The notes beneath the pieces are model-generated. The model did not search any database. It worked only from the letters and a program-made list of their open reading frames with translations, and was not told the origin of the DNA. Below, piece after piece: positions 3,256 to 36,507 of a stretch of DNA of 43,672 nucleotides. Position 1 is the stretch's first letter. Each line of letters begins with the position of its first letter. Made by a program: the position numbers and the translations under genes. The stretch lies in contig JAADGC010000069.1 of the NCBI GenBank assembly GCA_013152585.1, positions 1-43,672 on the forward strand, given 5' to 3'. The stretch is from Chloroflexota bacterium (GTDB lineage: Bacteria > Chloroflexota > Anaerolineae > J102).

Positions 3256-3298
3256 GTTCGATACTAAGTTGAGAATGATTGTGTCACGGATGCAGCGA

Positions 3299-4462: not shown

Positions 4463-4503
4463 AATGAGGATGGAATGAGGGGTAAGCAATGACGGGTGCT
4501 GAC

Positions 4504-4530
4504 AAAAAAAGCCCCACACTGAGTGTGGGC
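4504..4530 (-). terminator. Rho-independent terminator (minus strand) between the Nuo-like trio and HMGR
   Basis: Minus strand reads GCCCACACTCAGTGTGGGGCTTTTTTT. Confidence 0.85.
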
Positions 4531-6679: not shown

Positions 6680-8287
6680 TCAGGATCGCAGCAGAATGGC
6701 GCCGATGAGCAGGGCCAGGAGCACCCAGCCGAACTGACCGGCACCGTCGAGCACATCAGCCAACACGCCCAAGCACAGGGAAAGCCCGTGCAGCAGGCGT
6801 TCCCCGGCCTGAGACAGCCAATCCATGCGCGCCAGGGTGGCGACGCGGGCGCGAGCTACTCCCAGCGTCGTTCCCGTACGGCGGTGCAGCCTGGCAAGGG
6901 CGCCACCCACAGCCAGCGGCAACAGCAAGGTCAGCCAATCGATGCCGGTGGCGGAATGCAGCGGTGCAAAGAAGACGGCGTCGGGGCTATCCGGGGACAG
7001 GCCCGCACCCCACACGCCTAAAGTGGAGGGGAACAGGCCCCACCACAGGATCACGGCCCCCAGGGCCGTCACCCCCCAACTAAAAAGGCGGGGCGGGGAA
7101 CGGCGGGCGGGGCTGGCGACGAGCGGCGGGCGCAGAAATGCCGCCACCAACAGACTCTGTGCCAGCAGGTAAATCATCCACAGAGGAATGCCAATCACGG
7201 AGTTGGTGAGCCGATGCCAAAAGCCCATTAAGTTGAAAGCCGGCGTCAGCGGCAGGCCGTAGAGTGTCATAAAGGCCAGCCAATGCGGCAAGCGCCAATG
7301 ATAGCGCGCTTGGGCGACAGCGGCCATACCCCACATGAGAGCACCCAGGAACAGGGTGGTCAGCGGTAGCAGGAGATTGGCAGGTGGCGCCACGGCGACC
7401 AGAGCCACCATAAAAAGCACCCAGGCGCTGCGGTTGATGAGGATGCTGCGCCAGTAGCGAGCGGGATGATCTTCTGTCCATGCCGCCAGACTGCTGCCCA
7501 ACAGGGCTACGGCCACCAGGAATAACCACGACGAAACCGAGAGTAACGGCAAGGACAGGCTCCCCAACAGATGCAGCGCTGCCAGAGCCGGAATCAAATA
7601 CAGCAGCAGTGCCGGGCCCGGGGCCGGCGTGTCGGCGCTGCGGGCAGTGAGGTGAAAGGGGGTAACGCCGAGGGCGATGCTCACCGCCCCGACCAGCAAA
7701 AGCTGGGGCAGTGGGTTCAGTTGGGTGCCGGGGATCAGTTGCCATACCAGGGCCGCGGGATCCCACAGGGCAGCCATCCACAGGAAAGTGGTAGAGAGAA
7801 TGCCGGCTGTCCAGATGTGGGTGCGGCCGGGCGCCGGCGCCACCACTCCTACCAGCAACCACATCGCCGCCCAGGCCGCCAGCAGATTCATCCACGACAA
7901 CGCCAGCACTGCCAGCAAGCCGGCCGCGGCCAGCAGCATCATCCACAAGGGTCCGGTGGCATAGCCGGTATCATGGGTGGCCCCGGACAGCAAGGGGGCG
8001 ATCAACGTCACAACGAGCACAGCCAGACCCACCATCCAGGCCCAGGCATCCAGTTGCAGCCCGAACACGATTGAAATATCCAGGGGGATGTGCCATTGCC
8101 ACAACATCGGCGCCTGTTGGGTCTGAAAGCGTAACGCCAGCCAGGCCAGCAGGCCTAGCGCCATCCACAGCCGCGGCAGCCTACGCTGCCAGCGGCACGG
8201 CAGGTGCTTCTGGCCTGCCATCAGCAGAGCAGCGCCGCCCGTCAACCAGACGACGGGGCCAAGGGGTGATGTCCACAAAACATTCAT
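6680..8287 (-). CDS. Multi-TM membrane protein, divergent NuoL/M-like antiporter-type subunit
   Basis: 535 aa, many TM segments, GVTPFHLTARSADTPAPGPALL resembles PFHxWLPDAxxGPTPVSAL; GLPLTPAFNLMGFWHRL. Confidence 0.6.
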   Translation of the reverse strand: MNVLWTSPLGPVVWLTGGAALLMAGQKHLPCRWQRRLPRLWMALGLLAWLALRFQTQQAPMLWQWHIPLDISIVFGLQLDAWAWMVGLAVLVVTLIAPLLSGATHDTGYATGPLWMMLLAAAGLLAVLALSWMNLLAAWAAMWLLVGVVAPAPGRTHIWTAGILSTTFLWMAALWDPAALVWQLIPGTQLNPLPQLLLVGAVSIALGVTPFHLTARSADTPAPGPALLLYLIPALAALHLLGSLSLPLLSVSSWLFLVAVALLGSSLAAWTEDHPARYWRSILINRSAWVLFMVALVAVAPPANLLLPLTTLFLGALMWGMAAVAQARYHWRLPHWLAFMTLYGLPLTPAFNLMGFWHRLTNSVIGIPLWMIYLLAQSLLVAAFLRPPLVASPARRSPPRLFSWGVTALGAVILWWGLFPSTLGVWGAGLSPDSPDAVFFAPLHSATGIDWLTLLLPLAVGGALARLHRRTGTTLGVARARVATLARMDWLSQAGERLLHGLSLCLGVLADVLDGAGQFGWVLLALLIGAILLRS

Positions 8288-8450: not shown

Positions 8451-11400
8451 TCAGGACTGTGTGATCAGCGGCATCCACAGCAAGACCGGTGTGGGCGTAG
8501 GGGTCGCCGTAGCCGTGGGCGTGGCCGTCGCCGTGGGCGTGGGAGAAGGTGTCGCCGTTGGCGTGGGTGTGAATGTGGGGGGGGGGGTGAATGTAGGCGT
8601 GGCGGTGGCCGTGGGCGTGGCGGTCGGGGTATCGGTAGGCATGGGTGGGGGTGGGCACGGTGCCGCCAGGCAGCGTGTATTCCAGACTGAGTTCCGGCAG
8701 GCGCTCGGGCTCGTTCCAATCACTGCTCACCAGTTTGTACAACTGGTTGGCCGAGGCGTCGCCGGTGATCTGCCATCCGTAGTTGGCGGCATTGCCGGTA
8801 GCAAAGTCCTGCACGTCGGCCGTGACATTCCACTCGGTAAAGTCGCCCACCGCGGCCAGAGGGACGTCGGCGCTGGAGGTGGCGGCACGGTCGCCTGCGC
8901 CCAGGGCGCCAGGTGCATCCCAGGCCTGACCGCTGGTTGCCTGCTGCCAGGTAGCCTGGCGTTCTTCCCAGGCCTGCAACATGCGGTACAAATGTGTTTG
9001 CAATGGTGCAGTCTGATCTTCGTACACGTTCAGGCGCAACGTGGCTTGCGTAATCTTGGCATCGGCCGGCAGGGCGCTGAGATCAAAACGAATGAGGCTG
9101 TTGCGAGCGCCACTGGAGTGAATCCACAAATGCCCCAGGGTGCCGTAGTTGCGGGCGGGGTTCCACTCGTCGAGCAAGGTGTCCTGCACGATGGTCTGGC
9201 CGTCGCCAGCCTTGAGCAACATCGTCAACGGTTGCAGGTCCAAAGTCCCGAAATCGGCCTGTACGCCGGTCACCGACGCTCCCTGCCAGTTGAGGTAGCG
9301 CTCGGGCTGGCCGTCGTTGTCGTCGTCATCCTGCAGGCCGAAGTTGAAGCGCAGTTGCTGATGGGCGTGCAGTTCGCCGCCGAACAGGGCGGCGGGAATG
9401 GCAATTTCCAGATCGTAGCCGGTAGCGCTGTGCTGGCCGGCGGCCACAATGCCCGTGGTCGGGCCGCCCAGGCTTTGTACCAACCCGTCAGCACTGATGC
9501 TGACGCTGAAATCATCGCTGCCGGGGCGTTGGTCGGCGCTGGGATCGAAGCTGAGCAGCACGGCGTCGCCGCTGCCGACGGCGTTATCCTGCACCGATAC
9601 GGCCAGCAGCAGGGTGTCGGACCACCAGCCCCAACGCCAGGTGGCGCTGAGATCGGCGTCATCGGCCACGGGCTGGCCCTGCACAGAATCGGCGCTGGCG
9701 GCGGTGAGGCTGACGGCAGGCTGGCCCGCCCATTCGCTCACATCCCCATCCAGCGTCCGCGGCCCTACCGACTGGGCGGGCAGGGTGGGTTGCTGGCGGT
9801 CGAACTGGAACAGGGCCAGTTCGCCGAAGGTGGCGGGGTCGGCATCGAGGCTGCTTCCCGCCCAGATGAGATCGGTGTCGACATCATTTTGCTGTGCCGC
9901 GGGGGCAGTTGCTGTGTCGCGGTCGTACAGGGCGATATTGATGCCCAGCTTGCGCAGGTGCTCGAAGTTGGCACCCACGGCCGTGGCGGGGATGCGGGCT
10001 TCGATATCGTAGCCGGTGGCATGGGTCTGCACGGCCCATTGCCAGCCGGCGGGGGCGGGCTGGCCGCCTACCAGCAAGCTGCCGTCTGCACCAAAGAGCA
10101 TGCTGACGTCGTCGGCGCCGATCAGGCCGTCTTGCAAACCGTCGATGGCCACGCCTACCTGATCGAGTTGACCGGTTTGGGTGAGAACGTCGCTATCGTC
10201 GATGTGCAGGCCAAAGTAGAGGGCGTTGTCGTCCCAGCGCACGCGTACGTCGGCGTTGAGATCGGCCAGATCGGGCGTCTCACCGCTGATCGTGTCGGCA
10301 TCGCTGGCGTTGACGCTGCGCTGGAATGTGGATGTCCACTCGCTCAGATCGCCGTCGATGCTGGTGACGCCTTGCGGGTCGGCCACAAAACGACGGTCGG
10401 GTTTGGCAAAGCGGAGAATGGTCTGACCATCACCGGCGGCATAGACCAGTGTGCGATCCCAGGCATTGACGCTCCATAAATCTCCGGCTGCGGGCACATC
10501 GAGCACCGTCCAGGTGGCGCCGTCTTCGGTGGCTGCCAGGAATCCGTCACGGCCCACGGCCCAACCGGTGCTTTCATCCACCATCTGGATGCTGTAAATA
10601 AGGCTATTCACGCCCGTAAAACGATAATCTTCCCAGGTGAAGCCACCATCCTGGCTGTGCAGGATGCCCGCCTCGACGCAGGGATAGTCGGCATCTTCGT
10701 GGTGCCAGGACCCGGGGCGATAGCAGCCTGCGTACCACACGTTGTCGAGGGCACCGTTGGCATCGACATCGTAGGCGTCGATGGCATGTAGGAACCAACC
10801 GGCGTAATCGCTGAGGGGCGGGCGATGGCCCCAGGTCTGGCCACCGTCAAGCGTATAGCGGGGGCCGGCCGAAGTTTTGAGGATGGCCACCACGCCCACG
10901 TTTTCGTTGATCATATCGAGATCGACGCCGGTGGTGCGGATGACGGGTTGCGATTCGCTCCAGAAGCGATTGTTGGTGGTGTAGAAATAGTGGTGGGTGC
11001 CGGTGGCAATGCCTTTGTTGTCGGTGGTACGATTGACATCGTACAAGAAACCGCTATAGCCGGGTGCGAATTCGCGTCGCCAGGTGGCGCCGCCGTCGAG
11101 CGTGTGCACCATCAGGCCGCCGCGGCCAACAGCCGTGCAATCATCGGGATTGTCCGGTGCGCAGTCGATGGCCATCAACCAGGAACCGAGGGTGTCGGCC
11201 GCAACTGCAATATCGGGATTGTCGCGGAACTCCTGGGCGATCTCGCGCCAGGTGTTGCCGCCATCTGTGGTTTTGAGGGCGACGACGTGATCACCCACGG
11301 CATAAGCTACCTGATCGCTGGCGGCTTTGATGCTGAAAAAGCGGGGATAATGTCCGCCGATCACGTGTTCCCATTTGTTGCCGTCACGGGTGCGCCACAT

Positions 11401-20818: not shown

Positions 20819-21028
20819 TGCTACGCTACTGGACCCTGGCGTTTTTTGTTTTTGCCCCGGATTCACACATATTTTCACGGAAAAGAAAGGAAAACATCTT
20901 CAAAATCCGTGGCTAAAAGGCTTTGCTAAACGGCAAGTGTCATTTTCGCCAGACTCCAGTACTCTAATTACGATGCTGGATGGCCGGCATGTGTGTCTTT
21001 TGACGAAACAACGGCTAGCAACCTGAAG

Positions 21029-21304
21029 CTATTGGGGCTCTTCAGCTACCACTTCATCCAGGATCACCACAATCTCATCCCCTTCATTGAGATCAAGATT
21101 TTGCCGCAAATGGGCATTGATTAAAATAAAATGGGCGCCATCGCCCGTAGGAAAGGCCGATCCCTCGTAATCGCCACCATTAATCGTCCCTTTTACCCGA
21201 ATACGTGACGGCTTGCGCAGCTCTCCACTGACAAAGCGAGGAAACACGATGCAATAATAGTTGCCGCGACGTTTGAGTGGACCGATGAAGTGGATAGCCG
21301 CCAT
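21029..21304 (-). CDS. DUF1905 domain protein
   Basis: FIGPLKRRGNYYCIVFPRFVSGELRKPSRIRVKGTINGGDYEGSAFPTGDGAHFILINAHLRQNLDLNEGDEIVVIL matches the family as I know it. Confidence 0.75.
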   Translation of the reverse strand: MAAIHFIGPLKRRGNYYCIVFPRFVSGELRKPSRIRVKGTINGGDYEGSAFPTGDGAHFILINAHLRQNLDLNEGDEIVVILDEVVAEEPQ

Positions 21305-21497
21305 GGGACGAGACTCCTTAAAGAAGCGAGCAAAGAGGGCAACGATTGTCTATAAAATGATTTTAGCGTGTATCCCTTCTACTTGCCAAAAATCAAAGAG
21401 TTGTTTTTCAGGTCGGGCCGCGAGTTACATCTGTCGGCAGCGCCGTAACGATGAGCCTGGCCACAATCTGTCGTGCAAGAAAAACTGGCTCAGCAAT

Positions 21498-22586
21498 CTA
21501 CCCCACCTTTAGCAAATCCACCGCCACTTTGGCCACGGTGGGGGGATGCAGCAACATGTTGGTATAGGTGGCGTTGGCCATAGGACAGGCACATTCTTTG
21601 TTGGCAATGCTCTGGCGCATGGCCTGCATTTCGGGGCTGAACCAAATAGGCCGGATATCGTAATCGGTTTGGCGCAGATTACCTACGGGCTCGGCGCGGA
21701 TGCAGCAGGTCCAGACATCGCCGTTGGGGGCGATCTGGGCACCGGCCCAACCGGCATAGCAATCAATCACCTGGCGACGTTCGAACAACGTGCGCTTGGC
21801 CAGTTGATAGTATTGGGTGCGAAAACCCTGGGTAAAGCGGGCAAAGCCACTGGCATGGGCTTTGTGGGCCTGCTCGCTGAGGAAGTCGGCAATGGGGGCA
21901 TACGTTTCGGGGTCGGGGGTGATGCCCCAGCCCATGGTGTCCAACTCTACGCGCTCTTCCGCCACCTCGGTGATGTAACTGTCGGGCTGCAAGAACTGCA
22001 GGCCCTCGTAAATTGCGGCGAAGCGATGGGCGTTGAAGCGGCTGACCACCGTATGCACCGAAGTCACCAGGTTGGAGTGCTTTTCTTTGAGCGCCTTGAG
22101 TCCCTGCCAGGTGGCCATGGCCTTATCCCAGTTGCCGGGCACACCCCGCATATCATCATGTTCCTCACCGACGCCGTCCAGCGACAGGTTGATGCCCACA
22201 TTGGCTCCCGCACAGTCCGCACAGATGCGGTCCACGGCCGCCAGAATCCGCTTGGTGAGCAAGCCATTGGTGGGGATAGTGATGTAGGTGGGCTGGCAAT
22301 GTCGATAGCCGGAAATCACCATGTCGTCCAGGTCCTTGCGCAAAAAGGGCTCGCCGCCGGTGAAGGTGAGATATTCCACCGAACGCCCCAGCTTGCTGAA
22401 AACCTGATCCCATTCCGCCACGCTCATGTCGTCGTTGGGCTTGCGCCACACGTCGCAGGTGCGGCATTTGCTGTTGCAGCGATAGCTGATGGAGATCACC
22501 ACCGAAAACGGCATCAGCCGCGGCCAGCCATAGCGGCGGAACGCCCAATAGGCGGGGAGTCTGGGAGCAAGTGTGAGCAGAGACAT
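21498..22586 (-). CDS. Radical SAM protein, SPASM-like C-terminus (G)
   Basis: [13 protein letters not shown] (CxxxCxxC), [15 protein letters not shown]-terminal cysteines DCYAGW...[15 protein letters not shown]...NKECACPM. Confidence 0.92.
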
Positions 22587-22594
22587 GGGAGGAT

Positions 22595-24061
22595 TTATGC
22601 GGTCCGGGCAGCGTGCTTGGCGTCGGCGGTTTGCTCGTCGTTGCCCACGAAGAAACGATAGGCATTAGCAACGGTGCCCGGCAAGTCCAGCCAGAAGCTC
22701 TTCTTCGACACTTTTTCCCACACGCGTTTGGGCCGATACAAATAGAAGCGACGGTAGGCCTGGCGCCATTTTTTCACCACCAGCTCGGGATCGTAGCTGT
22801 CATCGTCGATGGTGAAGCTGGCTTTGGCGTCATGGATGGCCAGATCACTCCATTCATCGGCAAAGACATTCCCTTCTTCCTCGATCATATCCCACATTTT
22901 GGTACCGGGGAAAGGGGCGGCCAGCATGAAGTTGGCCAGATCGGGGTCCAGCTCCAGCGCAAGCTGAATGGTTTTTTCCATGGTCTCTTCCGTATCACGA
23001 GGCATCCCAAAGATGAAAAAGCCCATTGTTTGTAGATCGGCGGCTTTGGCCCAACGGAAGGCATTGCGCACCTGATCCAGGGTCTGGCCTTTGCGGATCA
23101 CGTTGCGCAGTATCCAGGGATCGCCGCTTTCCACCCCGAAGCCGACCCGTTTGGCGCCGGCAGCTTTCATGAGATGGAACAGCTCGGCATCGGTGTGATT
23201 CACCTTCATGCCGTGGACGGTGGTCCAGGACACGGTGTTGAGCCCTTCGGCAACCAGTTGTCGGCAAATATCTTTGGCCCGCGGCAGCTTCAAATTCCAA
23301 ATATCATCCGTCACCCCAATCTCGGTCGCATGCAGACCTTCGACAAGCCACCGCCATTCGGCGATCACATTTTCCACGCTGCGCCCGCGCCAGGTGTTGC
23401 CGGTCACCGGTTTCGAGCAAAAAATGCACTGGTAGGGGCAGCCACGGCTGGTAAGAATGGTGAAGCTGCGGGCGTGGGGGTCCAGTCCGTCTGTCAGGGG
23501 TTGGAGATTGGTGTAATGATCGATCTTGAACAGATCGTGGGCCGGGAAAGGCAGGCTATCCAGGTCCTCGATGATGGGCGAAATGGGCGAAATATAAATC
23601 TCGCCGTTGTGGCGATAGTTGAGTCCGGGAATAGCGCCGTCTTCGGGCTTTTCGTCCTTTAGCAAGGCATCGGCAAACGCGACAATACCGTGTTCGGCCT
23701 CGCCCTTGAAGGTGTAATCGACATATGGATGCTCGGGGCCCAGCGATTCGGCGGGCATAATGGTGAGATGAGGGCCACCCAAAAGGGTGATGAGGCCTCG
23801 ATCCTTGGCGACTTTTGCCATTTCCCAGGCATCCTGAATCAGGGGCGTGGTGGCGGTGATGCCAATAAAGGTGTAGGGCTTAGCTTCGGCGGCGGCTTTA
23901 TCGATGTACGAAGTAACGGGCACATCTTCGATGGACGCGTCGTAGATGATGACATCGTGGCCGGCCTCACGCAAGACGGCGGCCAGATAGCCCAGGCCAA
24001 GGGGGATGTGCTTACGCGAAGACCATACTTTGGCTTCGGGACTTGCTAAGATGATTCGCAT
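22595..24061 (-). CDS. B12-binding-domain radical SAM protein (F)
   Basis: [37 protein letters not shown]...[26 protein letters not shown]; start taken as ATG at 24061. Confidence 0.93.
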
Positions 24062-24155
24062 GGGGATAGATCGGTTAGGCGCTAATTGGGTCACTTGGTA
24101 GATGGATGACTTTTGAGGGAGACGGTATTCGATGAGCAGTCGCCATCGACAAACC

Positions 24156-25565
24156 TCAGGCCAGGGCGCTGACAATGCCTTTGCGGGTGTTGCCGGGCAC
24201 GGCATAGCCAATGCCATCGCCATCGGGCACCCAATCGCGATGAGCGCATGCCTTGCGATAGCCATAATCGGTGCTGAAGCTGGCAAATGCTTTGCGAGGC
24301 CAGTCGCGCAGGGGATGCCGCATAAGGTTACGCAGGCCGCGGCTAGCAACACCGGGCCAACCATACAGTTTGCGGGCCAACCAATCGTAACCGGCAGCCA
24401 GTTGGGCCGGCGTCATTTGTGCCGGGTAGTAGGTGACGTGGGTGGTATCATACAAGGACCATGGGACATTGGGGATGAGGCGATTCTCATCGATCCACTG
24501 TTGGCGTTGGGGGGTGCCCACATACGGGGTAAGTACCGTGATGCTGACACCTTCCAGCTCACTTTCCCGAATGACATCGTAAGTGTGCTGGAATATCTCG
24601 GGCGTATCACCATCGAACCCAAACACAAACAAGCCCACAACGCCGATACCGGCAGCGTGCACGTTGTCGATAACCTGGTGATAGCGCTCGATGTTGCCGT
24701 CTGTCTTGCCGCCTAATTGACGGCGATTGTTGGGATTGGCGCTCTCGAAGCCAATGAAGAACTTGTCGAGATGCGCTTCGCGGGCCAGCTTGAGCAAATC
24801 GGGATGATCGGCCACCAACTGCTCGGCCTGACAGGTCCAGCCCTGCAAGGGGAGTTTACGCAGGGCCTTGAACAGCGACTCCATGTATTCGGGGTGCAGA
24901 CGGAAATTAAGGCCGAAATTATCATCCGTGAGAAAGAAACGTTTGATCCCGCGACGTTCAATTTCTTCCACCACCTGCTCTACGGGACGCAGTCGCATCA
25001 CCCGGCCTGAGACGCGAATGGCCGTACAAAAGTCACAACTACGGGAGCAACCCCGCGTGATCTCGAGATAGGGTGTCCAATAATTGCGCTTTTCGTCAAC
25101 CTGACGCAAGACGCGATCACTGATGGGCACGAGCTTATCGAGCGAAGCCCATTCCTCGTCCACATAACGGGGTTGAAGGGCACCACGGTCAAAATCGGCG
25201 ATCATCTGCGGCCAGGTGCGATAGGCCTCGCCCACGGCAATACTGTCGGCCCACGCCGCCACTTCGTCCGCAGCCAACGTAGCGTGGGGCCCTCCCACCA
25301 CCACCGTAGCGCCGCGGGCTTTGGCCCTTTCGGCAATCCAGCGTGCGCGTTCGATTTGCAATGTTTTTGCCGTAATGCCTACCAAATCACCGGGCCCCAT
25401 TTCGTCAAAGGGCACGGGGCGCAGGTCTTCGTCGATGATCTCGACAGGAACGGCATCGGGCACCAGCGAAGCCAGGCGCATCAGTGTATAAGGTGCCATG
25501 GTCGCCCTTCTAAGGACGGTGCCATCTCGACCGGGTTGGATTAAAGTAACGCGATGTATGCTCAT
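24156..25565 (-). CDS. B12-binding-domain radical SAM protein (E)
   Basis: [54 protein letters not shown]. Confidence 0.93.
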
Positions 25566-25650
25566 AAAATTAATCGAAAGAGAGAAAGAGAGAGGTGGTT
25601 ATTGTACAGGTCAAGTCCTGTTTGATCGATTTCTCAGCCCGTGCAGACCA

Positions 25651-25710
25651 GTAAACCAGGCCGATGGAGGCCAGCGTCGTTTGTGCTGGCCTACCGGTTG
25701 ACGGGTTTAC
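25651..25710. other. Nested inverted-repeat (potentially structured) intergenic segment inside the radical SAM cluster
   Basis: AGGCCAGC (25668-25675)/GCTGGCCT (25685-25692) inside GTAAACC (25651-25657)/GGTTTAC (25704-25710). Confidence 0.45.
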
Positions 25711-25788
25711 CGGCTTTCAAGAAAGTGAAGCGCTGTTGTCAGCTTCCACGTTGCAGTCACACCCGTAATAGCGTGACGACGATGTGGC

Positions 25789-25995
25789 TTATCCTAAATT
25801 ATGAACGTATTTTTGAAGCTGGCGCTGGTTGATTTTGATGTACTGATCGGGGATGATTTCGGCTACTTCGGCCTCGCTGAGACGCACGCGCATGATTTTC
25901 AGGGCATCTTGCGGCGACTCACCGTAGGCGAGTTTCTTCTTTCCGTTCTTGAGATCGAAAAGATACATGTAGTGAGGGTTGCTGAAGCTGCTCAT
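25789..25995 (-). CDS. 68-aa small protein embedded in the radical SAM cluster, function unknown
   Basis: MSSFSNPHYMYLFDLKNGKKKLAYGESPQDALKIMRVRLSEAEVAEIIPDQYIKINQRQLQKYVHNLG; same strand, 24-nt gap from the preceding radical SAM gene; protein-like composition. No strong SD seen. Confidence 0.65.
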   Translation of the reverse strand: MSSFSNPHYMYLFDLKNGKKKLAYGESPQDALKIMRVRLSEAEVAEIIPDQYIKINQRQLQKYVHNLG

Positions 25996-26019
25996 GGGAG
26001 TACTGGGGTGATCGTGGGC

Positions 26020-27423
26020 TCAGGCCTTAACGAGGACATCTTGATACAAACCGGAACCGTGCCGGACTGCCTGCAAACCTTTGTTGATCTCGTCGTCGTA
26101 TTTGCCGGCCAACATGTCACGATAAAATTGATAATCGACACCCTTGACTTTTTCGTCATCGGGGAAGCGATGGTAATCGTCCTTTGACATCAGGCTTTTG
26201 CCTTCGGCGATGAGTTGGTAGCCCAGGGCCGAACCGGGATAGGGGGCGTAGAACGAAATCGAGGGCATGACGCGCTTCATGCGCTTGAGCATGCGCATGG
26301 TTTTGAAAGCATCCTCGTGGGTCTCGCCCGGAATGCCCAACATGATGTTGGACCAGAAGAACGGGGGCTGCTCGCCCTTGGCCTCGAGTTCGTCGCCCAG
26401 GCGGTTGACCAGATCGATGGCGAAGGTGTTATCCTCTTCGTTGGATTCTTTGTTGAGCAGCTTCAAAATGCGGTCGCTGCCCGACTCGAAGCCGATGGAA
26501 ATGGTGCGCCAGTTGGTTTCGCGCACCAGGGCCTGGAACAAATCGGGCCATTGGCGCACGGTGTCGGCGCGACCGGCAGCCCAATAAGTCCAGCGTTTGG
26601 TCTGCCGCGGGTATTTTTCCAACCATTCTTCCAGCCAGCTCGGCTGCTGGAAAAACATAGAATCATGAATGACCACGGATCCCACACCGTATTTGCGATC
26701 CAAAAAATTCAGTTCGTCGATCACCTGATCCACAGAGCGGCGGCCCATCACTTTGATGTAGGAGCTTTCGTTGCAGAACACGCACTGCCACGGACACACG
26801 CGGCTGGTGAGTATGGTGGCCACAGGACCTGGCCCCCACCCGCATTCGAGCTCCATAGGCCAGTGCCACTTCCAGCGACGCTTCATGCGCCAGCCGCCGG
26901 CTGGTCGGGGCCAGAGTTCGCGGTCGATCATGGGCCACTCGGCCATAGATCGCGCACTTTCGCCCTGGAACAAACGTGGAAAAGCCGAGGGATCGCGCAC
27001 CAGATCGACGATTACTTTTTCGCCGGCGCCCATGCAGATCTTATCGAATTCGGGCACGGCCTCCATTTCATCGGGGGCTACGGTGGCGTGCATGCCGCCG
27101 GCGAGGATGAGGCTGTTGGGGTTGAGCTGTTTGAAGAGCTTCGCCGCCTTGAGGGCGGGTGGAAAGGTGTAGCTACGCACGTTCATCAGAAGCATGTCGT
27201 AGCCGGCAAGCTGCGGTTTCAGTTCTTCCCAGGATGTGACCGCACGCGTCGAGGCGATGTCGGTTTCGATGCCGTTTTGATGCAGAATGGTGCGTAAAAG
27301 CCCCAGGCCGTGATCCTGCCATTGTTCGTGGGGGCCGCGCGGATGCACCAGATCGCCAAGATCCCCAAGATCAAGCCACAGGATACGGGATTTAGGGGAT
27401 TTGCGTGAAAATAAGAAGGTCAT
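26020..27423 (-). CDS. B12-binding-domain radical SAM protein (D)
   Basis: LILAGGMHATVAPDEMEAVPEFDKICMGAGE, TSRVCPWQCVFCNESSYIKVMGRRSVDQVIDEL, IGFESGSDRILKLLNK. Confidence 0.92.
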   Translation of the reverse strand: MTFLFSRKSPKSRILWLDLGDLGDLVHPRGPHEQWQDHGLGLLRTILHQNGIETDIASTRAVTSWEELKPQLAGYDMLLMNVRSYTFPPALKAAKLFKQLNPNSLILAGGMHATVAPDEMEAVPEFDKICMGAGEKVIVDLVRDPSAFPRLFQGESARSMAEWPMIDRELWPRPAGGWRMKRRWKWHWPMELECGWGPGPVATILTSRVCPWQCVFCNESSYIKVMGRRSVDQVIDELNFLDRKYGVGSVVIHDSMFFQQPSWLEEWLEKYPRQTKRWTYWAAGRADTVRQWPDLFQALVRETNWRTISIGFESGSDRILKLLNKESNEEDNTFAIDLVNRLGDELEAKGEQPPFFWSNIMLGIPGETHEDAFKTMRMLKRMKRVMPSISFYAPYPGSALGYQLIAEGKSLMSKDDYHRFPDDEKVKGVDYQFYRDMLAGKYDDEINKGLQAVRHGSGLYQDVLVKA

Positions 27424-27438
27424 AATCGTTTTTCCAAC

Positions 27439-28575
27439 CTATCGACTGCTGCCATGCAGACTTTCCTCGGGCATTTCGAGTTCGATAGGGATGCCAGATT
27501 CGTGCCCGTTATCGTTGGTGCGAATCGCCTGCCCACTCAATTGCTCTTGCACCGGACGATTACCGAAACCGGCGGCCAGGGTGGGCTTCCACCAGGCCCA
27601 TTCGCTGCATGTGTTGCACGGTGAAACTTCGTGGGTGCGCTTTTGCAGGTGCTGGCGCCGTAATTCCTGCATCTTCGCACCGTTCCAGTTCTTCATCACC
27701 CGCACAACACCGTCCTCGTCGATCACGTTGCCCAGATCATAATCGAGGTTGAAGTCGCGATCACACATGGCAATGGCACCATCCCAGTAAATGTGCACGT
27801 GGTACCACAGGTTGGGACAGGCAAAGCGGGGGGGAAGCTGTTTGCTCTGTTCCAGTCGCAAAGCGCTGATCTCTTCTACCTGATCACCCCAGGAATCGAA
27901 AGGTTTGACGTGCACCAGATCGACACCGGGGACCTGGCCCCAGGTTTCGACAAAGGTGGCGGTGTCATCTTTGGTGTTTTCCATCTCGATAATCTGTAAA
28001 TTGACAAAGGTGCCGTAGCCGCCCTGATGCTTCATCTCCACAAAACGGTGGATGTTGTTGTTTGTTTTGGTAAAATCGGCATTCACGCGCACGTTTTCGT
28101 AGGTTTCGGGGCGGATACCATCCTGGCACAGATAGATGACGTTGAGCCCGGCATCGAGCAAGCGTTGAGAGCGCTCGGGCGTAAGTAGGGTGGCATTGGT
28201 GCTGATCTCGGAGCGCAAGCCTTTATCGCCACAATAGGCCACCATATCATAGATGCGCTTGTGCAGCAAAGGCTCACCCCAGATATGCAGGGTGGTGGCT
28301 TTGACATGGGGTGCCATTTCATCCACGATTTGTTTGAAGACTTCCCATTTCATAAAACCGTGCGGACGCGTGATTTCTTCGCGACCGGTGGGGCACATGA
28401 TGCAATTCAGGTTGCAGATGTTGGTGGATTCGATGTACATGCGGTCGGGTGGGGGCACATAGCGGGTTTGGCCTGTCTCGTAAGCCAACCATTTCACCGG
28501 CCCCATGACCTTGCGTCGATAGATGCGCGATTTGTTACGCAATTTTTCCTGAAAAGTAAGTGTCTGTGTTGTCAT
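27439..28575 (-). CDS. Radical SAM protein, SPASM-like C-terminus (C)
   Basis: ESTNICNLNCIMCPTGRE (CxxxCxxC), LHIWGEPLLHKRI, C-terminal FACPNLWYHVHIYWDGAIAMCDRDF...SPCNTCSEW. Confidence 0.93.
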   Translation of the reverse strand: MTTQTLTFQEKLRNKSRIYRRKVMGPVKWLAYETGQTRYVPPPDRMYIESTNICNLNCIMCPTGREEITRPHGFMKWEVFKQIVDEMAPHVKATTLHIWGEPLLHKRIYDMVAYCGDKGLRSEISTNATLLTPERSQRLLDAGLNVIYLCQDGIRPETYENVRVNADFTKTNNNIHRFVEMKHQGGYGTFVNLQIIEMENTKDDTATFVETWGQVPGVDLVHVKPFDSWGDQVEEISALRLEQSKQLPPRFACPNLWYHVHIYWDGAIAMCDRDFNLDYDLGNVIDEDGVVRVMKNWNGAKMQELRRQHLQKRTHEVSPCNTCSEWAWWKPTLAAGFGNRPVQEQLSGQAIRTNDNGHESGIPIELEMPEESLHGSSR

Positions 28576-28592
28576 TTTCGATCCTTGTCAGC

Positions 28593-30065
28593 TTAGCTCC
28601 AGGAGGTGGCGCCAAAAAAGCTGCTTTTGGTACGGCGGAAGGTGTCGAACAATCCCCATTTGACCAACGTGCTGCCAACTTTGCGAATAGGAGTGATGCG
28701 CGCCGCGTTCCATAGCAAATCGCCGGCGGTTTCGCCAAAGCTATGCCGGTACATGCGCCGTTTTTTAGCTTCTAAAAAGCGCTCGCGGGCCCTGATAGCA
28801 TATCCGCTGAGGACGCGATCATCGATGTCGGAGACGTTCATAAACGGGGCGATCTCGGCTGTGTAGCTGTTGTAGTAATAGCTCTTGGTGAAATCGGCAT
28901 TGTATTCCGTATCGGGATGTTTGCGCAATAGTTCGTTCCAAAGCTGAGTGCCGGGCATGGGCGTGGCAATCGAGAACATCGCTTCGCTGAGTTCCAGGCC
29001 GGCCGCGAATTCAATGGTGTCGGCGATGGTTTGCTCGTTATCGCCAGGAAGCCCCAGAATGAAGTAGCCCTTGCTGTGGATGCCGGCCTGTTCGGTCCAA
29101 CGCACGGCATCCTGCACCTGATCCAGGCGGATATGTTTGGCTGTGCGCTTGAGCACTTCTTCGTTGCCGCTTTCGATACCATAATGGACCTGGCGGCAGC
29201 CTGCTTTGTACATCTTGCGCAAAAGCTCGGGGTTGACGCGGTCCACGCGAGCCAAACAACGCCAGCGGATGTCCATATCGCGGGCGATGAAATGATCAAG
29301 GATTTCATCCAGCCGCCGCACATCGATGGTAAAGAGATCGTCGATGAAATAGAAGTTGTGCACGCCATAATGCTGCATCATATATTCCAGTTCGTCGGCG
29401 ATGTTTTCGGGGCTGCGCTGGCGATAGGTGCGGCCCACAATGCCCTTAAAACAAAAGGAACAGTTGTACGGACAACCACGGCTGCTCAACACTGTAAGCA
29501 TCTGCTCACCGTTGGGCGCATACAACGGATATTGTGCGAGTTCGAAGAGATGCCGGGCCGGGTAGGGTAAGGCATCGAGATCAGCGATCAGCGGACGCTC
29601 GCCGCCGTCGATCACCTGGCCTTCTTCTTTGTACCAAAGACCGGCCATGTCGCCCCAGTTGTGGGCATGATTGTCGAGAGCGCGCATAAAGTCGCGGAAA
29701 ACATCTTCGCCCTCCCCATAGATGAGAAAGTCGAAATGGGGGTTTTCGAGGGTATGTTGGGGCAATGTAGTAGCATGGGGCCCGCCGATGATGGTCGTGA
29801 CCCCCAGGGCATCTTTGAGCATGGCCGCGGCCTGCTCGACGCTGGCGTAGCTGGTGGTCATCGATGTGAAGGCTACCAGATCGGGACGATAGTCAATCAC
29901 GTTCTGAACTTCAGCCTCCAGGGTGCGCTCGGGGTGCAGGCCAAAGTCGAAGATACATGCTTCGTGGCCCTCTTGTTCGGCCACAGCAGCCAAATAACCT
30001 AAACCCAGCGAGGGATAGGCGTTTACCATTTCGTTCCATTTGGGGCCGATGAAGGCGATTTTCAT
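28593..30065 (-). CDS. B12-binding-domain radical SAM protein (B)
   Basis: [36 protein letters not shown]...IIGGPHATTLPQ; SSRGCPYNCSFCFKGIVGRTYRQRSPENI; ATG at 30065 preceded by AGGAGG. Confidence 0.95.
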   Translation of the reverse strand: MKIAFIGPKWNEMVNAYPSLGLGYLAAVAEQEGHEACIFDFGLHPERTLEAEVQNVIDYRPDLVAFTSMTTSYASVEQAAAMLKDALGVTTIIGGPHATTLPQHTLENPHFDFLIYGEGEDVFRDFMRALDNHAHNWGDMAGLWYKEEGQVIDGGERPLIADLDALPYPARHLFELAQYPLYAPNGEQMLTVLSSRGCPYNCSFCFKGIVGRTYRQRSPENIADELEYMMQHYGVHNFYFIDDLFTIDVRRLDEILDHFIARDMDIRWRCLARVDRVNPELLRKMYKAGCRQVHYGIESGNEEVLKRTAKHIRLDQVQDAVRWTEQAGIHSKGYFILGLPGDNEQTIADTIEFAAGLELSEAMFSIATPMPGTQLWNELLRKHPDTEYNADFTKSYYYNSYTAEIAPFMNVSDIDDRVLSGYAIRARERFLEAKKRRMYRHSFGETAGDLLWNAARITPIRKVGSTLVKWGLFDTFRRTKSSFFGATSWS

Positions 30066-30276
30066 ACCGTAATCCTCCTGTTGCAGTTTCGGTGCGCCGG
30101 CAGCACTGAGTTTGGCTCGGGCACGGGGCAAAGTCAGCTCAGCCTATGCTAGCACCAGCAGATGAATTCCGACTGAAAAAACATTTCAGAATCGATGACA
30201 ATTTTGTCATCCTGGTCGGACTTCGCAACGAACCGCAGTTGCTTAGGAATCGTGCAAAAATGAGTTCCCGTTTTTG

Positions 30277-30339
30277 ACCTCCGGGAGGTGGGCACCGATA
30301 GTTCGGTGCTGGCGGCACTTCTGACCACCTCTTGGAGGT
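30277..30339. repeat. Multi-hairpin palindromic element between radical SAM genes A and B
   Basis: ACCTCCGGGAGGT, then GCACCGA-TAGT-TCGGTGC, then ACCTCTTGGAGGT; similar layout at 39182-39244. Confidence 0.6.
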
Positions 30340-30356
30340 TCATTCGAGACAAACAC

Positions 30357-31859
30357 TTAGGATATCGCCTCCGCTTCGATCTTCTTGCGAAGTCCGGTTT
30401 TTTCGGCTTTAGGCACAAATGTGCGCATGGCAATACGGATGTTACGCGGCAGGTTCATCCAAAAATCGCCCGACTTCACCCGCCGCCAGATGGGGCCTGG
30501 CCGCAAATAGAATTGCCGGTACGCCTTGCGATACATCTCTTCCACCAGCTCAGCCGTCATCTCGCCCATTTCGTAACGCGCTTTTTGTTCGAAAAAGACA
30601 TAGTCCTCCCAATCATGAATCAACATGCGCCCCTGGCGCTTGACCTGCGCCCATACCTTGGTGCCGGGATAGGGCGTCATCATGCTAAAGTTGGCAATCA
30701 GCGGATCCAGCTCGATGGCGAAGTCGATGGTGTCCTGCATGGTTTCACGCGTTTCACCGGGTAGACCAATAATCATAAAGGCAATGGTTTCCAGCCCGAC
30801 CTCTTTACAAGCCTTAAAGGCGTTACGAATGGTATCGAGATCGATATTCTTGTCGATGTCTCTCAATATCTGGGAGTTGCCTGTTTCCACACCAAATGCT
30901 GTGCGTCGCAAACCTGCTTGTTTGAGCTTTTTCATCAGCTCGTAATCGGCCAGATTAGCGCGAATACCGTTGACAAAAATCCAGGGCACATGGTTGAGAT
31001 TGTTTTCGATCAGCATATCGGCCAGTGTGTGCAGGCGCTTTTTGCGGATGTTGGCGCTGTCATCCAGCACACCGATCTCCTGGGCGTCGAGGTCTTCGAC
31101 CAGATGCTTCCATTCGGCCAACACGTTTTCGGGCGTACGGCTGCGCCACTTGATGGGCATAATCGACTGCGAGCAAAAGATGCAGCGATACGGACATCCG
31201 CGGCTGGTAAGAATGCTGAAGCTCTTGGAGCCATCCACGTTGTCGGTGGCGGGCTGTAGATTGGTGTACTTGTCCATCCGAAACAGATGATAGGCTGGCC
31301 AGGGCAAGCTATCGAGATCATCGACGGCCGCTCGGCCCAGGTTGCGATGCAATGCCCCGTCCGCCGTCTTGTACGAAATGCCCAGCACATTATCCCAGAT
31401 GCCCCTGTTCGCCCCCATGAGCGCCGCTGTCGAGGTGTCTTCCTGATCACGCATGAAATCCTCGATGCGATTACAAATCTCCATCCAGGTCTCTTCGCCC
31501 TCGCCACGGACGACCAGATCGACCGCGGGTTGGCGGGCGGATTCAAAATCAAGCTCCTCACTCTCCACACTGGGATGAGGTCCCCCCAGCACGATGGGTA
31601 CATCCCAGGCTGCCTTGATCTTTTCGGCATGGCGCCAGGCCTGCTTGACCTGCGGGGTATTGGCCGTAATGCCAACCACATGGGGTTTGAACTCTCGCAT
31701 GAATTCATCGAGCGGCTGATCCTCGACGTCGGCATCATAGATACGAACCTCGTCACCACGCTGTTCTGACATGGCTGCCAGGTAGGCCAGGCCCAGGTGA
31801 GGCGTAGTACGGGTATCGATGGGGAGACGGAATCGGGGATTGATTAAAACAACACGCAT
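30357..31859 (-). CDS. B12-binding-domain radical SAM protein (A)
   Basis: MRVVLINPRFRLPIDTRTTPHLGLAYLAAMSEQRGDEV...IVLGGPHPSVESEE; TSRGCPYRCIFCSQSIMPIKWRSRTPENV; start taken as ATG at 31859. Confidence 0.95.
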   Translation of the reverse strand: MRVVLINPRFRLPIDTRTTPHLGLAYLAAMSEQRGDEVRIYDADVEDQPLDEFMREFKPHVVGITANTPQVKQAWRHAEKIKAAWDVPIVLGGPHPSVESEELDFESARQPAVDLVVRGEGEETWMEICNRIEDFMRDQEDTSTAALMGANRGIWDNVLGISYKTADGALHRNLGRAAVDDLDSLPWPAYHLFRMDKYTNLQPATDNVDGSKSFSILTSRGCPYRCIFCSQSIMPIKWRSRTPENVLAEWKHLVEDLDAQEIGVLDDSANIRKKRLHTLADMLIENNLNHVPWIFVNGIRANLADYELMKKLKQAGLRRTAFGVETGNSQILRDIDKNIDLDTIRNAFKACKEVGLETIAFMIIGLPGETRETMQDTIDFAIELDPLIANFSMMTPYPGTKVWAQVKRQGRMLIHDWEDYVFFEQKARYEMGEMTAELVEEMYRKAYRQFYLRPGPIWRRVKSGDFWMNLPRNIRIAMRTFVPKAEKTGLRKKIEAEAIS

Positions 31860-31968
31860 AGTGTGAGCACCTTTCATTTGGGATGCAGAATGAAGCTTCA
31901 CGCACGAACGGCGTGGAAAAACAGACGCCAGTGCCACCAAGGCTTCTCTGGCGTATCCAATCGGTGGG

Positions 31969-31997
31969 ATTATACGAGGATGCGGGGGAGATGTCAA
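31969..31997 (-). promoter_or_regulatory. Exact-consensus sigma70 promoter of the radical SAM cluster
   Basis: Minus strand TTGACA (31997-31992), 17-nt spacer, TATAAT (31974-31969); about 100-nt leader to the ATG at 31859. Confidence 0.85.
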
Positions 31998-32024
31998 ATT
32001 TTTATGAAACGTTTCATAAAAATT
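31997..32024. promoter_or_regulatory. Perfect 28-bp palindrome, candidate LacI/GalR-family operator
   Basis: AATTTTTATGAAACGTTTCATAAAAATT equals its own reverse complement; core TGAAACGTTTCA with central CG; abuts the -35 box. Confidence 0.65.
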
Positions 32025-33474
32025 ATCCCTTGACCACCGCTAGCGGACGCAAACGCGCGACTTTACGGGCAATGTTGGCATTATGTACCACTTCGACCAC
32101 GCTGTTCACATCTTTGTACGCCATCGGAGCTTCTTCAGCCAAGCCCCTCAGGCTGCTGGTACGCACCTCGATCCCACTTTGTTGCAAGCGCTGCTTGAGT
32201 TCCTGGCCGCGTATCTGCCGTTTGGCAGCTTTGCGGCTGAGCCGCCGACCGGCGCCGTGGCACGAAGAGCCAAAACTATGACGCATGGCGCCGGCGGTGC
32301 CGACCAGCACATACGAGGCCGTGCCCATACTCCCGGGCACCAGTACGGGCTGTCCCACGTGGGCATAGTCGGCTGGCACAGCGGGATGACCGGGCGCAAA
32401 TGCCCTCGTGGCTCCCTTACGATGCACGCAGACCTGCACCGACTGCCCCTCAATCGTATGTGTCTCCAGCTTGGCCATGTTGTGAGCAATGTCGTAGACC
32501 AGGCGTAGTTCGTAACCGCGCACATGCCCGGCCAGCACCTGCGCAAATGCCTGCCGCGCCTGATGGGTCAGCACTTGCCGATTGGCCCAGGCATAGTTGG
32601 CTGCTGCTGCCATCGCTGCCAGATAATCCTGGCCTGCGGGCGAGGCTACCGGGGCGCACACCAGTTGGCGGTCGGGCAAGGTCAGCCCGTATTTTTTCAC
32701 AGCGCCCTGGAATGCCTGCACGTAATCGGTGCAGACCTGATGCCCCAGTCCCCGCGAACCGCAATGGATTTGCAGCACGACCTGCCCCGGAAACAGACCC
32801 AAGACCTGGGCGATCGTATCATCGAATATCTCATCTACGATATCGATCTCAGCAAAATGATTCCCCGCTCCCAGCGTGCCCACCTGATCTCGACCACGTT
32901 GTTTGGCCCGCCCGCTCACCTTGTCGGCACGGGCGCTGGCCATGCGTCCCAGTTCTTCGGTGTGAGCCAGATCGGCAGGCAACGCCATGCCCTTGTCCAG
33001 AGCCCAACGCGCACCACGTGCCAGCACCTCGTCCACCTCCGCCGTAGAAAGTTTGAGGAAGCCTCCCACGCCTACGCCGCTGGGGATATGCTGATAGAGG
33101 GAAGTGGCCAATTGTGAGAGATAGGGCTGCACTTCATCTGCTTCCATCTCCGAGGCCAGCAGCCGCACACCGCAATTGATGTCAAAGCCCACCCCGCCGG
33201 GTGAGACCACACCGGTTCTGGCGTCGGTCGCCAGCACGCCACCAATGGGAAAGCCGTAGCCTTGATGGATATCAGGCATGGCCAGGGCATAGCACAGGCT
33301 ACCGGGCAAGGTGGCCGTATTGATCAGTTGTTCCAACGAGCGGTCATGCAGCGCCGCATCGATGATGCTTTCATCGGCATAGATGCGCGCCGGCACCCGC
33401 ATATCCGGGCCACACGAAGCGTCGATTTCGTAGAGATAAGCGCCGATTTGTCTGATATTTTGACGTGAAACCAT
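32023..33474 (-). CDS. rtcB: RNA-splicing ligase RtcB
   Basis: AMPDIHQGYGFPIGGV, GGVGFDINCGVRLL, GTLGAGNHFAEI, IHCGSRGLGHQV, VPGSMGTASYVLVGT, SSCHGAGRRLSRKAA. Confidence 0.97.
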   Translation of the reverse strand: MVSRQNIRQIGAYLYEIDASCGPDMRVPARIYADESIIDAALHDRSLEQLINTATLPGSLCYALAMPDIHQGYGFPIGGVLATDARTGVVSPGGVGFDINCGVRLLASEMEADEVQPYLSQLATSLYQHIPSGVGVGGFLKLSTAEVDEVLARGARWALDKGMALPADLAHTEELGRMASARADKVSGRAKQRGRDQVGTLGAGNHFAEIDIVDEIFDDTIAQVLGLFPGQVVLQIHCGSRGLGHQVCTDYVQAFQGAVKKYGLTLPDRQLVCAPVASPAGQDYLAAMAAAANYAWANRQVLTHQARQAFAQVLAGHVRGYELRLVYDIAHNMAKLETHTIEGQSVQVCVHRKGATRAFAPGHPAVPADYAHVGQPVLVPGSMGTASYVLVGTAGAMRHSFGSSCHGAGRRLSRKAAKRQIRGQELKQRLQQSGIEVRTSSLRGLAEEAPMAYKDVNSVVEVVHNANIARKVARLRPLAVVKG

Positions 33475-33609
33475 AGCGCAGCCTCCGGGTAGGTGACACA
33501 CGACGACTCTCTTATTATAGCACAGGCCGGGACGTTTTTGCGGGAGGAACACTCCGATGGGGTGTGTGTCCTCTTTTTGGAAGTGCGCCGTGCGTGCCGC
33601 ACCGGCCCT

Positions 33610-34197
33610 CTATTCGGCCCGCATCTCGTCCCAACGTGTGCGCAGCACCCGTAGCAACTGCCGCCGCCTTTCCAGATGGTACTTGGCTGTGCGATCCTGC
33701 GATTCGAACTGATTGATGAGGAGAGCCTCGGCATCATCATTGGCCAGCATATCCCGGTTCTGCCAAAAAACAGCCGCCGCCACATTTTCGTCACCTGCCT
33801 GCACAAATGCCAGCAACGCTTTGGCTATGGCTCCTTGCTTTTGTGCCTGCCGGCGCTGCTGTTTCAGAGCCACCAGGGCTTGCAAACGCCCATTCAGGGC
33901 CTGAGCATTGACGGCATCTCCCCGGCGTTCGGCATGGGCTACAGCTCTCTGAATGGCCTCGATCATGGCCTCGTCCAGCAGAAAAGGGACCTGCTCCACC
34001 AATGCTTGCAAAGCCTGCTCATCGGCCGTGGCAGCAAAACGCTGCAAGATCAGACTCACCAGCCAGCGTTCATATTGCCGGCGCAATTCGGCATCGGCTG
34101 CCAGCGCAGATTGTAGACTGGCAGCATCGACAACGCCGGCCGCCAACAGGCGTTGCTCGAGTTCTTTAGGAGGGGATGCAGCATCAAACATACACAA
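33610..34197 (-). CDS. Hypothetical Ala/Gln-rich helical protein (195 aa)
   Basis: Long continuous ORF of helical character, no family recognised; adjacent to a same-strand membrane protein gene. Confidence 0.6.
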   Translation of the reverse strand: MCMFDAASPPKELEQRLLAAGVVDAASLQSALAADAELRRQYERWLVSLILQRFAATADEQALQALVEQVPFLLDEAMIEAIQRAVAHAERRGDAVNAQALNGRLQALVALKQQRRQAQKQGAIAKALLAFVQAGDENVAAAVFWQNRDMLANDDAEALLINQFESQDRTAKYHLERRRQLLRVLRTRWDEMRAE

Positions 34198-34205
34198 AAG
34201 TCCGT

Positions 34206-36119
34206 TCAGGGAGATTGAATCGAGGCTACCGGCAGGGGATCGGCCATGCGCTGGCCCGTTGCCGGATCATAAAACCCCGCCACCAGGGTGTACCCGCCCG
34301 GCGGCAGATCCTGGGGCAAGGGAAGCTGGAAGGTGTCGAGCATGATGTCGCCCGGTCGCCACAATGATGAGGGCAAAAAGTCGCCGCCGGGGCGATGATC
34401 GTCGGCCTGCAGCACCTTTTCGCCAGCCTCGTTGTAGATTTGCATAAAGCTGTGCCACACTACGGGCGGGGTTTGCACCACCCGCCAGGTGAGCGTGACA
34501 TCGATCACGCCGCCGGGGGCGGTGTCGCCCGACCAGGCGATGGCCAACCAGCGCAAATAATCGCCGTAGGGCTGTTCAAAGCTGGTGTCGGGTACGGGGT
34601 GGGGGCGCAGTACCCGTGTGAGAGAATCGCCCAGGGCCGCGGTTTCGTACAATGCCTGCAAGCCGGGCATGGGCTTGACCGTCACCACCGGCCGCCCGCT
34701 TTGCAAGGCCAAATGCAGGGTGGTGTTGAGATCGGCCCAGTCCGGCCCTGGCGCCATCAGCGGGAAAATGCCGATAACACCAGGCGCCTGGCCTTCGACC
34801 TGCTGCAAATAAATCAGCGGCGTGATCTCATCCCGATCATTGCTGACGAGCACGGCATCGGCGGGCAGGTCGGGCGTGGTCAGCACCCGGCGCCAGAATT
34901 CGCTGGCGCTGTCATCCTGCGAACGATTAAAAACATGGCTGTAACTCCGCACCTGCCAGGCCGGCAGCAGCAGCGCCAGCAACGCCAAGGCCAGCAAGCC
35001 CGTCTGCCAGCGCCCAGCCAACACCCGGCTGAGCAATTCTATCCCATACGCCAGGCCCAAGCCCAACCATAAGGTGGCAATCAAATACGCAGGGATATAA
35101 AACGTGTAAATATCGCCGATGCCATAAAAAAGATTGAAGCCCACTATCATCACAAAACTGACCACGGTCAGCACCAGCGCCAGGATCTTTTCTTCCAAAA
35201 GCAACGCCAGCAAGCCCAGCAGGATCAGAATCAAGCCGGGCCAGCCAAAGTGCACGAGGAACAGATGCGCGGCCTGGGGAATTTGCGCCACGGCATCTCC
35301 CAGGCTGCGCAGGGCCGGGGCAAAGCCCACTCCCAGGATAAAACGCAGCACGCCCAGGGGCGACCCATCGTATAACGAAAGGTGTTGACCCGGCATCAGG
35401 GTGGGCGACAGCCAGGGGCTGGCCGGCCCCCGCCACGGCACATAGGCGTAAAGCAACAACGGCACCAAAACAAACGGCGCCAATCGCAACAAACGGCGGG
35501 GCCGCAACAAATCCGGACGCTGCCATAACAAATACAGAAAAACACCCGGCCACAGCAGAATAATCGTGAGATGATGGGTCAAGCCCAATCCCAGCCACAG
35601 GGCCAGCCCCCAGGGCAGGGCCCCACTGCGGGCCCGGCTTTGAAACCACTGACGCTGTCCCAGGGCCAGTGTCGAAGCCAGCAGACCAGCCACCAGAGCC
35701 GCATGTAGGGTATATACCTCGGCTCGCGTGGCCTCGGCCCAAAACGTGGGATTCGCCGCGAACACCAGTGTGGTGATCCCGGCCAGCCAACTGCTCCCGC
35801 GCTGCCAGCGCAAGTGCGTTGTCAACTGACCGATGATCTCCTGAGCCAGCAAATAAAACAGGGCCACAGCCACGCCTCCCCACAGGGCGCTAAAGTGATT
35901 GGCGCCTTGCGCTGGATTCAGGCGATAGGATTGCTCCCACACCCACCCCAACAGATGATACAGGGGATAGCCGGTGGGATGAGACAGGCCCAGCAACGGC
36001 AGGGTGAACTGGAATTCCCCCGCATCTCCGAATAATACGCCAGGCGCGGCCGTCGCCCGATACACCAAGAAGGCAATCAGTCCCAAAACAGAAGCAATCA
36101 AGTAACGACGCGTACGCAT
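34206..36119 (-). CDS. DUF2723 multi-TM protein (candidate glycosyl/O-mannosyltransferase-like)
   Basis: YRATAAPGVLFGDAGEFQFTLPLLGLSHPTGYPLYHLLGW is characteristic of the DUF2723 N-terminus; many TM helices, soluble C-terminal domain. Confidence 0.85.
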   Translation of the reverse strand: MRTRRYLIASVLGLIAFLVYRATAAPGVLFGDAGEFQFTLPLLGLSHPTGYPLYHLLGWVWEQSYRLNPAQGANHFSALWGGVAVALFYLLAQEIIGQLTTHLRWQRGSSWLAGITTLVFAANPTFWAEATRAEVYTLHAALVAGLLASTLALGQRQWFQSRARSGALPWGLALWLGLGLTHHLTIILLWPGVFLYLLWQRPDLLRPRRLLRLAPFVLVPLLLYAYVPWRGPASPWLSPTLMPGQHLSLYDGSPLGVLRFILGVGFAPALRSLGDAVAQIPQAAHLFLVHFGWPGLILILLGLLALLLEEKILALVLTVVSFVMIVGFNLFYGIGDIYTFYIPAYLIATLWLGLGLAYGIELLSRVLAGRWQTGLLALALLALLLPAWQVRSYSHVFNRSQDDSASEFWRRVLTTPDLPADAVLVSNDRDEITPLIYLQQVEGQAPGVIGIFPLMAPGPDWADLNTTLHLALQSGRPVVTVKPMPGLQALYETAALGDSLTRVLRPHPVPDTSFEQPYGDYLRWLAIAWSGDTAPGGVIDVTLTWRVVQTPPVVWHSFMQIYNEAGEKVLQADDHRPGGDFLPSSLWRPGDIMLDTFQLPLPQDLPPGGYTLVAGFYDPATGQRMADPLPVASIQSP

Positions 36120-36309
36120 AAGGCATCAATCGCTCCCTGGCCCTGCATGCAGCACGGGCCGTCAGAGATCGAAGAACGGCAGAGAAAACAGAAGGAATGA
36201 GAAAGGGGAGAGGGGTGGCGGCAAGAGCCTGCAACGCCAAGATGGTACCACAGGCAGGGAAAATCAGATAAAAGTGGTAGTTCTTTTGGAACTCAGGGGG
36301 ATGTTTTGA

Positions 36310-36354
36310 GTACGTGTCTTTATGCGACGCATCTGCGAGATGCGTCGCACGTAC
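36310..36354. repeat. Palindromic dispersed-repeat-like hairpin
   Basis: TGCGACGCATCT-GCG-AGATGCGTCGCA (12-bp perfect stem, 36323-36349) flanked by GTACGTG/CACGTAC. Confidence 0.75.
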
Positions 36355-36507
36355 AATAGGGGCGAATGGTGTTACATGAGGCGCTGGCAGGAGTATGCGC
36401 CCTCGGCCAGTCGTGAAAAAAATGGGGGAAGGAGGAGAAGAGCACTCCTTGCGAAAACAAGCAATAATGTTTATGATGGGAGCGTCAGTATATAATAGGA
36501 TTGCTCA

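Follow-up and report, generated by a model that had tools for sequence, protein, structure and literature searches.

Small open reading frames located beside radical SAM enzymes are usually read as RiPP precursors. PqqA and MftA, among the closest known counterparts of the protein described here, are short proteins of conserved sequence that are constantly paired with a single radical SAM family, as described for MftA (PMC3023750); in mycofactocin, the conservation sits mainly at the C-terminus. The precursors of the NHLP clan (PF14407, Frankia_peptide, and NF038399, Os1348 family) carry a Gly-Gly and a hypervariable core (PMC2887384). Methylation is the commonest activity among cobalamin-dependent radical SAM enzymes (PMC11659888), and protein targets are possible, as shown by MgmA, a B12 radical SAM enzyme whose methylation target is a Gln in methyl-coenzyme M reductase (PMC11796369). 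No description of an obligate 68-aa partner was found for MgmA, TokK, OxsB or CysS in the MgmA paper or in the literature searched.

The window, which is the whole stretch of 43,672 nucleotides analysed here, derives from a Chloroflexota bacterium and harbours seven consecutive radical SAM genes, A to G (21498-31862, minus strand), five of them B12-binding or B12-binding-like. The B12-binding domain scored above the cut-off in A, B, D and F, and more weakly in E. Between D and E lies the gene of a 68-aa protein, hereafter the small protein. The features are as follows.

30357 to 31862, minus strand: array gene A, B12-binding radical SAM, HpnJ/BchE-like, with a distribution unlike that of the small gene
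28593 to 30065, minus strand: array gene B, B12-binding radical SAM; among NCBIfam models ApyD scores best, far under the cut-off
27439 to 28575, minus strand: array gene C, radical SAM/SPASM
26020 to 27423, minus strand: gene D, B12-binding and radical SAM, CxxxCxxC at C210/C214/C217, obligate companion of the small protein
25996 to 26019, minus strand: spacer from D to the small gene, 24 nt or 8 in-frame codons without a stop; elsewhere a 4-nt ATGA overlap
25789 to 25995, minus strand: small protein gene, ATG start, 68 aa, near-invariant N-terminal tail (1-8), then a predicted β-β-α-α-β-α domain (9-68)
24156 to 25565, minus strand: array gene E, B12-binding-like radical SAM, beginning 223 nt after the small gene
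22595 to 24061, minus strand: array gene F, paralogue of A and likewise a B12-binding radical SAM
21498 to 22586, minus strand: array gene G, radical SAM/SPASM

The small gene begins 24 nt past the TGA stop of D on the same strand, its protein (MSSFSNPHYMYLFDLKNGKKKLAYGESPQDALKIMRVRLSEAEVAEIIPDQYIKINQRQLQKYVHNLG, ending in IKINQRQLQKYVHNLG) contains no Cys, and its Shine-Dalgarno sequence is not convincing in this genome, all as described in the first-pass annotation. The gap to E, given there as 160 nt, is longer (ATG of E at 25565). Some relatives possess a Shine-Dalgarno sequence at the small gene, such as GGAGGAAGGCAGC-ATG in L064. The search of 25500-26100 for a promoter-like site found none, and an Rfam scan of 21000-36500 matched no family.

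The small ORF is a genuine gene under strongly purifying selection, far beyond chance. Differences at codon positions 1, 2 and 3 in the family were distributed as 65620:36752:133286, and the median pn/ps was 0.26 in the true frame versus 1.20 in the +1 frame. The median pairwise omega was about 0.18, with many pairs saturated at silent sites. Purifying selection at the codon level and homologues adjoining homologues of D, the two properties that the first-pass annotation had named as the ones to look for, are thus both present.

Full-length homologues of the small protein, with 59-85% identity, were found in 26 of 61 related genomes. The scan of the GTDB contig collection, made by short exact patterns that distant homologues may escape, revealed 87 relatives, of which 80 were kept; their record titles correspond to Chloroflexota lineages or unclassified bacteria. 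The family comprises at least 88 Chloroflexota loci, and the genomes compared are mostly metagenome bins. No relatives were found in viral contigs or plasmids. Scans against Pfam, NCBIfam and PHROGs gave sub-threshold matches only, and the best hit of a PDB sequence search was RpoN, not significant at E 0.22. The small protein is the founding example of an undescribed family.

Nearly all homologues are exactly 68 aa long. The exceptions, all in metagenome assemblies, are L008 and L039 (TAG), L017 and L105 (altered ends), and one of the two copies in L043. In L039 (8780-8986, identical to L008) a TAG stands in frame at codon 11 of a small gene that is otherwise intact and lies downstream of an intact D; candidate explanations are a sequencing error, a pseudogene and recoding. 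In L043 the small gene is present twice, at 7888-8118 and 10001-10204, some 2.1 kb apart. The first copy has lost its C-terminus to a sequence that resembles the end of the adjacent RraA-like protein, in what appears to be a duplication junction. Conservation extends from the first residue through the terminal LG, with 20 of the 68 alignment columns invariant in 88 sequences. Positions 1-13 are near invariant in the alignment column table, and residues 1-8 read MSSFSNPH.

Gene D encodes a B12-binding radical SAM enzyme, with both domains above the cut-off (PF02310, 34.8 bits against 32.1; PF04055, 47.9 bits against 29.5) and a CxxxCxxC motif whose residues C210, C214 and C217 are invariant. 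No NCBIfam equivalog came near its cut-off with D, and at E < 0.001 only TokK and MgmA were its relatives by sequence in the PDB. The structural model of D has the B12 radical SAM fold, and its nearest Foldseek matches were MtaB, MiaB, TokK, MgmA, OxsB, AprD4 and CysS. D shares both domains, the CxxxCxxC motif and the fold with MgmA (9ccb), TokK (7kdx), OxsB (5ul3) and CysS (9n1c), but is only remotely similar to them.

Wherever the genomes allowed a check, the small protein is obligately linked to D, and to D alone. In a phylum sample of 400 genomes, the two were present in the identical 10 genomes (Fisher 4e-20, uncorrected for phylogeny). Among the 61 relatives, 29 have D and 26 have the small protein; in the three genomes with D only (G001, G012 and G057) D is cut by the contig end, and wherever the 3′ end of D is present, so is the small gene. 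The pairing persists without linkage: at L033, L034, L036, L043, L050, L051, L068 and L104 the small gene is not beside D, which is located elsewhere in the genome, and one clade has unlinked the two genes and retained both. At L084, the small gene is directly preceded by the final codons of D, which fall at the edge of the contig. Where linked (67 pairs), the two genes are coupled in an operon, overlapping by the 4-nt ATGA in 11 pairs, lying within 10 nt in 30 and within 120 nt in 60. Only five changes in D, mostly conservative, accompany the clade-specific changes of the small protein.

In four of the 67 linked pairs, all in Caldilineaceae (L071, L074, L083 and L093), an insert of about 2 kb separates D from the small gene. 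Among the insert genes, c32 looks like a ParA-type ATPase and c33 in L074 matches HEPN_RiboL-PSP; the insert looks like a mobile element.

The first-pass annotation had presented the small ORF as a member of the radical SAM array. It does adjoin D within the array, but its obligate tie is with D only, and most pairs of D and the small gene lie outside such arrays. An obligate system spanning the whole array was rejected because the distributions of A and D differ, 10 of the 61 genomes having A but no D and 4 having D but no A. Other Chloroflexota also carry A, F and G together, in some cases accompanied by B, C and E and in others not. Elsewhere in the window, HMG-CoA synthase-like and HMG-CoA reductase-like genes (2188-4519) were recognised by eye, with a thiolase-like gene alongside (962-2143), which suggests a mevalonate pathway in this Chloroflexota genome.

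The surroundings of the pair in other genomes were counted at 56 loci having sufficient upstream sequence. Upstream of D, a gene for an A-type Fe-S carrier (PF01521) was found in 21 loci, an HTH regulator, SufR-like by reading of its sequence, in 16, a MoaA cluster gene in 12 and a DUF2203 gene in 6. A carrier, regulator or DUF2203 gene lies within 8 kb in 32 of the 56 loci, array genes A, F or G in 16, and both in 4. This context suggests, without proving it, a housekeeping role for D.

AlphaFold, run with the 88-sequence alignment, gave the small protein a mean pLDDT of 86; residues 9-68 average about 90 and residues 1-10 only 62. Residues 9-68 are confidently predicted to form a β-β-α-α-β-α domain (strands 9-15, 20-25 and 47-55; helices 28-38, 41-46 and 57-66), and the N-terminal tail is modelled with low confidence. 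Foldseek detected no significant match in the PDB (best E 0.61); among viral structures, the best match was an uncharacterised phage protein (E 0.024). D and the small protein were also modelled as a tethered chain, using the in-frame read-through ORF in which the TGA was translated as W, solely for the sake of the modelling. The mean pLDDT of this model was 73, with low confidence near the linker and the Fe-S loop, and no interface was resolved. Biological read-through of the TGA of D was rejected because spacers and frames differ in most other genomes.

The small ORF had been proposed to encode either a substrate peptide or an accessory protein. A partner or a conserved protein substrate fits the results, and a classic RiPP precursor is unsupported and disfavoured. 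Instead of the conserved leader and variable core that were to be looked for, the alignment revealed a protein conserved throughout, of fixed length and predicted to be folded; no hypervariable C-terminal core was found in the 88 sequences, and neither the window protein nor the alignment column table contains a Gly-Gly or leader cleavage motif. The NCBIfam models of PqqA and MftA did not match the small protein, and no PqqD-like RRE was detected in it by Pfam or NCBIfam sequence searches or by structure. Similar to PqqA and MftA, the small protein co-occurs obligately with one radical SAM family. It differs from them in lacking a sequence match, in its predicted folded domain conserved along the whole length, and in its partner D, which is of the B12-binding type and gave no match to a SPASM domain. 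Because it is found only together with D, we are almost certain that the small protein is either a target of D or a partner working with it, and not a classic antibiotic-type peptide precursor.

Two readings outside this frame have to be weighed. Residues 26-51 of the small protein resemble an NHLP leader, a likeness recorded here as unexplained, above the controls and far below the cut-offs, which could mark a relict or divergent NHLP-clan RiPP precursor matured by D or other array enzymes. Weak matches were obtained with PF14407 for 12 of the 88 members (best E 0.0036) and with NF038399 for 26 members (best E 0.017), and hhalign of the family against 20 class members matched by PF14407 gave a probability of 80% and a score of 28.7, whereas 60 column shuffles reached no more than 14.2 and 42 unrelated families no more than 19.2. 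Nonetheless, the likeness is local, covering 24 columns and only 22-24 residues in the matches; the best NF038399 score, with ten members scanned singly, was 14.1 bits against a cut-off of 40; the first leader helix, the Gly-Gly and the variable core of the clan are missing; and the shared motif, a helix N-cap followed by LTxEE, is short enough for convergence. Such an origin is very unlikely. An independent function, for example as a nucleic-acid-binding or Fe-S-responsive regulator merely sharing the operon of D, is also unlikely. Residues 40-68 do weakly resemble the DNA-binding domain of RpoN, in the PDB hit already mentioned, and Fe-S carrier and HTH regulator genes stand upstream of D in many genomes, but neither that hit nor any PDB structural match is significant, and co-occurrence with D holds even where the genes are unlinked.

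The more probable readings are those of a dedicated partner and of a substrate, and co-occurrence, coupling, conservation and the near-invariant, flexible-looking tail are equally compatible with both. As a substrate, the small protein would be modified by D, for example C-methylated, on a residue of the N-terminal tail or the β-hairpin, giving a modified protein or a protein-derived cofactor. We regard this as possible and not far behind the partner reading. It would parallel PqqA and MftA, both of them conserved precursors, or the B12 radical SAM enzymes that act on a protein. In its favour, the pairing with D is strict and the conservation of the small protein total, the tail is near invariant despite its low confidence in the model, the conserved mycofactocin peptide was discovered through the same type of evidence (PMC3023750), and MgmA is among the nearest solved relatives of D, together with small-molecule enzymes such as TokK. 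On the other hand, structure prediction gives the small protein a folded domain rather than a linear peptide, the PqqA and mycofactocin models do not match, and no protease, exporter or user protein visibly co-occurs. The partner reading is preferred because of this predicted fold and the lack of visible processing machinery, and we give it about an even chance of being correct. Against it stand the small number of D changes that accompany those of the small protein, and the tethered model, in which no interface was resolved. As a dedicated obligate partner, the small protein would be translated together with D, fold as a small β-β-α-α-β-α domain and bind D, and its probably flexible tail would contact the enzyme, most likely close to its active site or cobalamin domain. 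Together, the two proteins may run one conserved B12-dependent radical reaction, such as the methylation or rearrangement of a metabolite.

In contrast to the usual RiPP pattern, the small ORF encodes an undescribed, folded-looking protein of fixed length, the strict companion of an uncharacterised B12 radical SAM family. The pair spans many families of Anaerolineae, often outside radical SAM arrays and sometimes beside Fe-S carrier genes. More speculatively, and somewhat doubtfully, D and the small protein may constitute a minimal two-gene system, restricted to Chloroflexota as far as seen, in which D would modify the near-invariant tail of the folded 68-aa protein and so create a novel cofactor or protein-borne modification that serves a housekeeping role. 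D expressed without the small protein may fail, so the small protein would be the missing piece for finding the reaction of D; if it is the substrate of D, it would represent a new protein modification.
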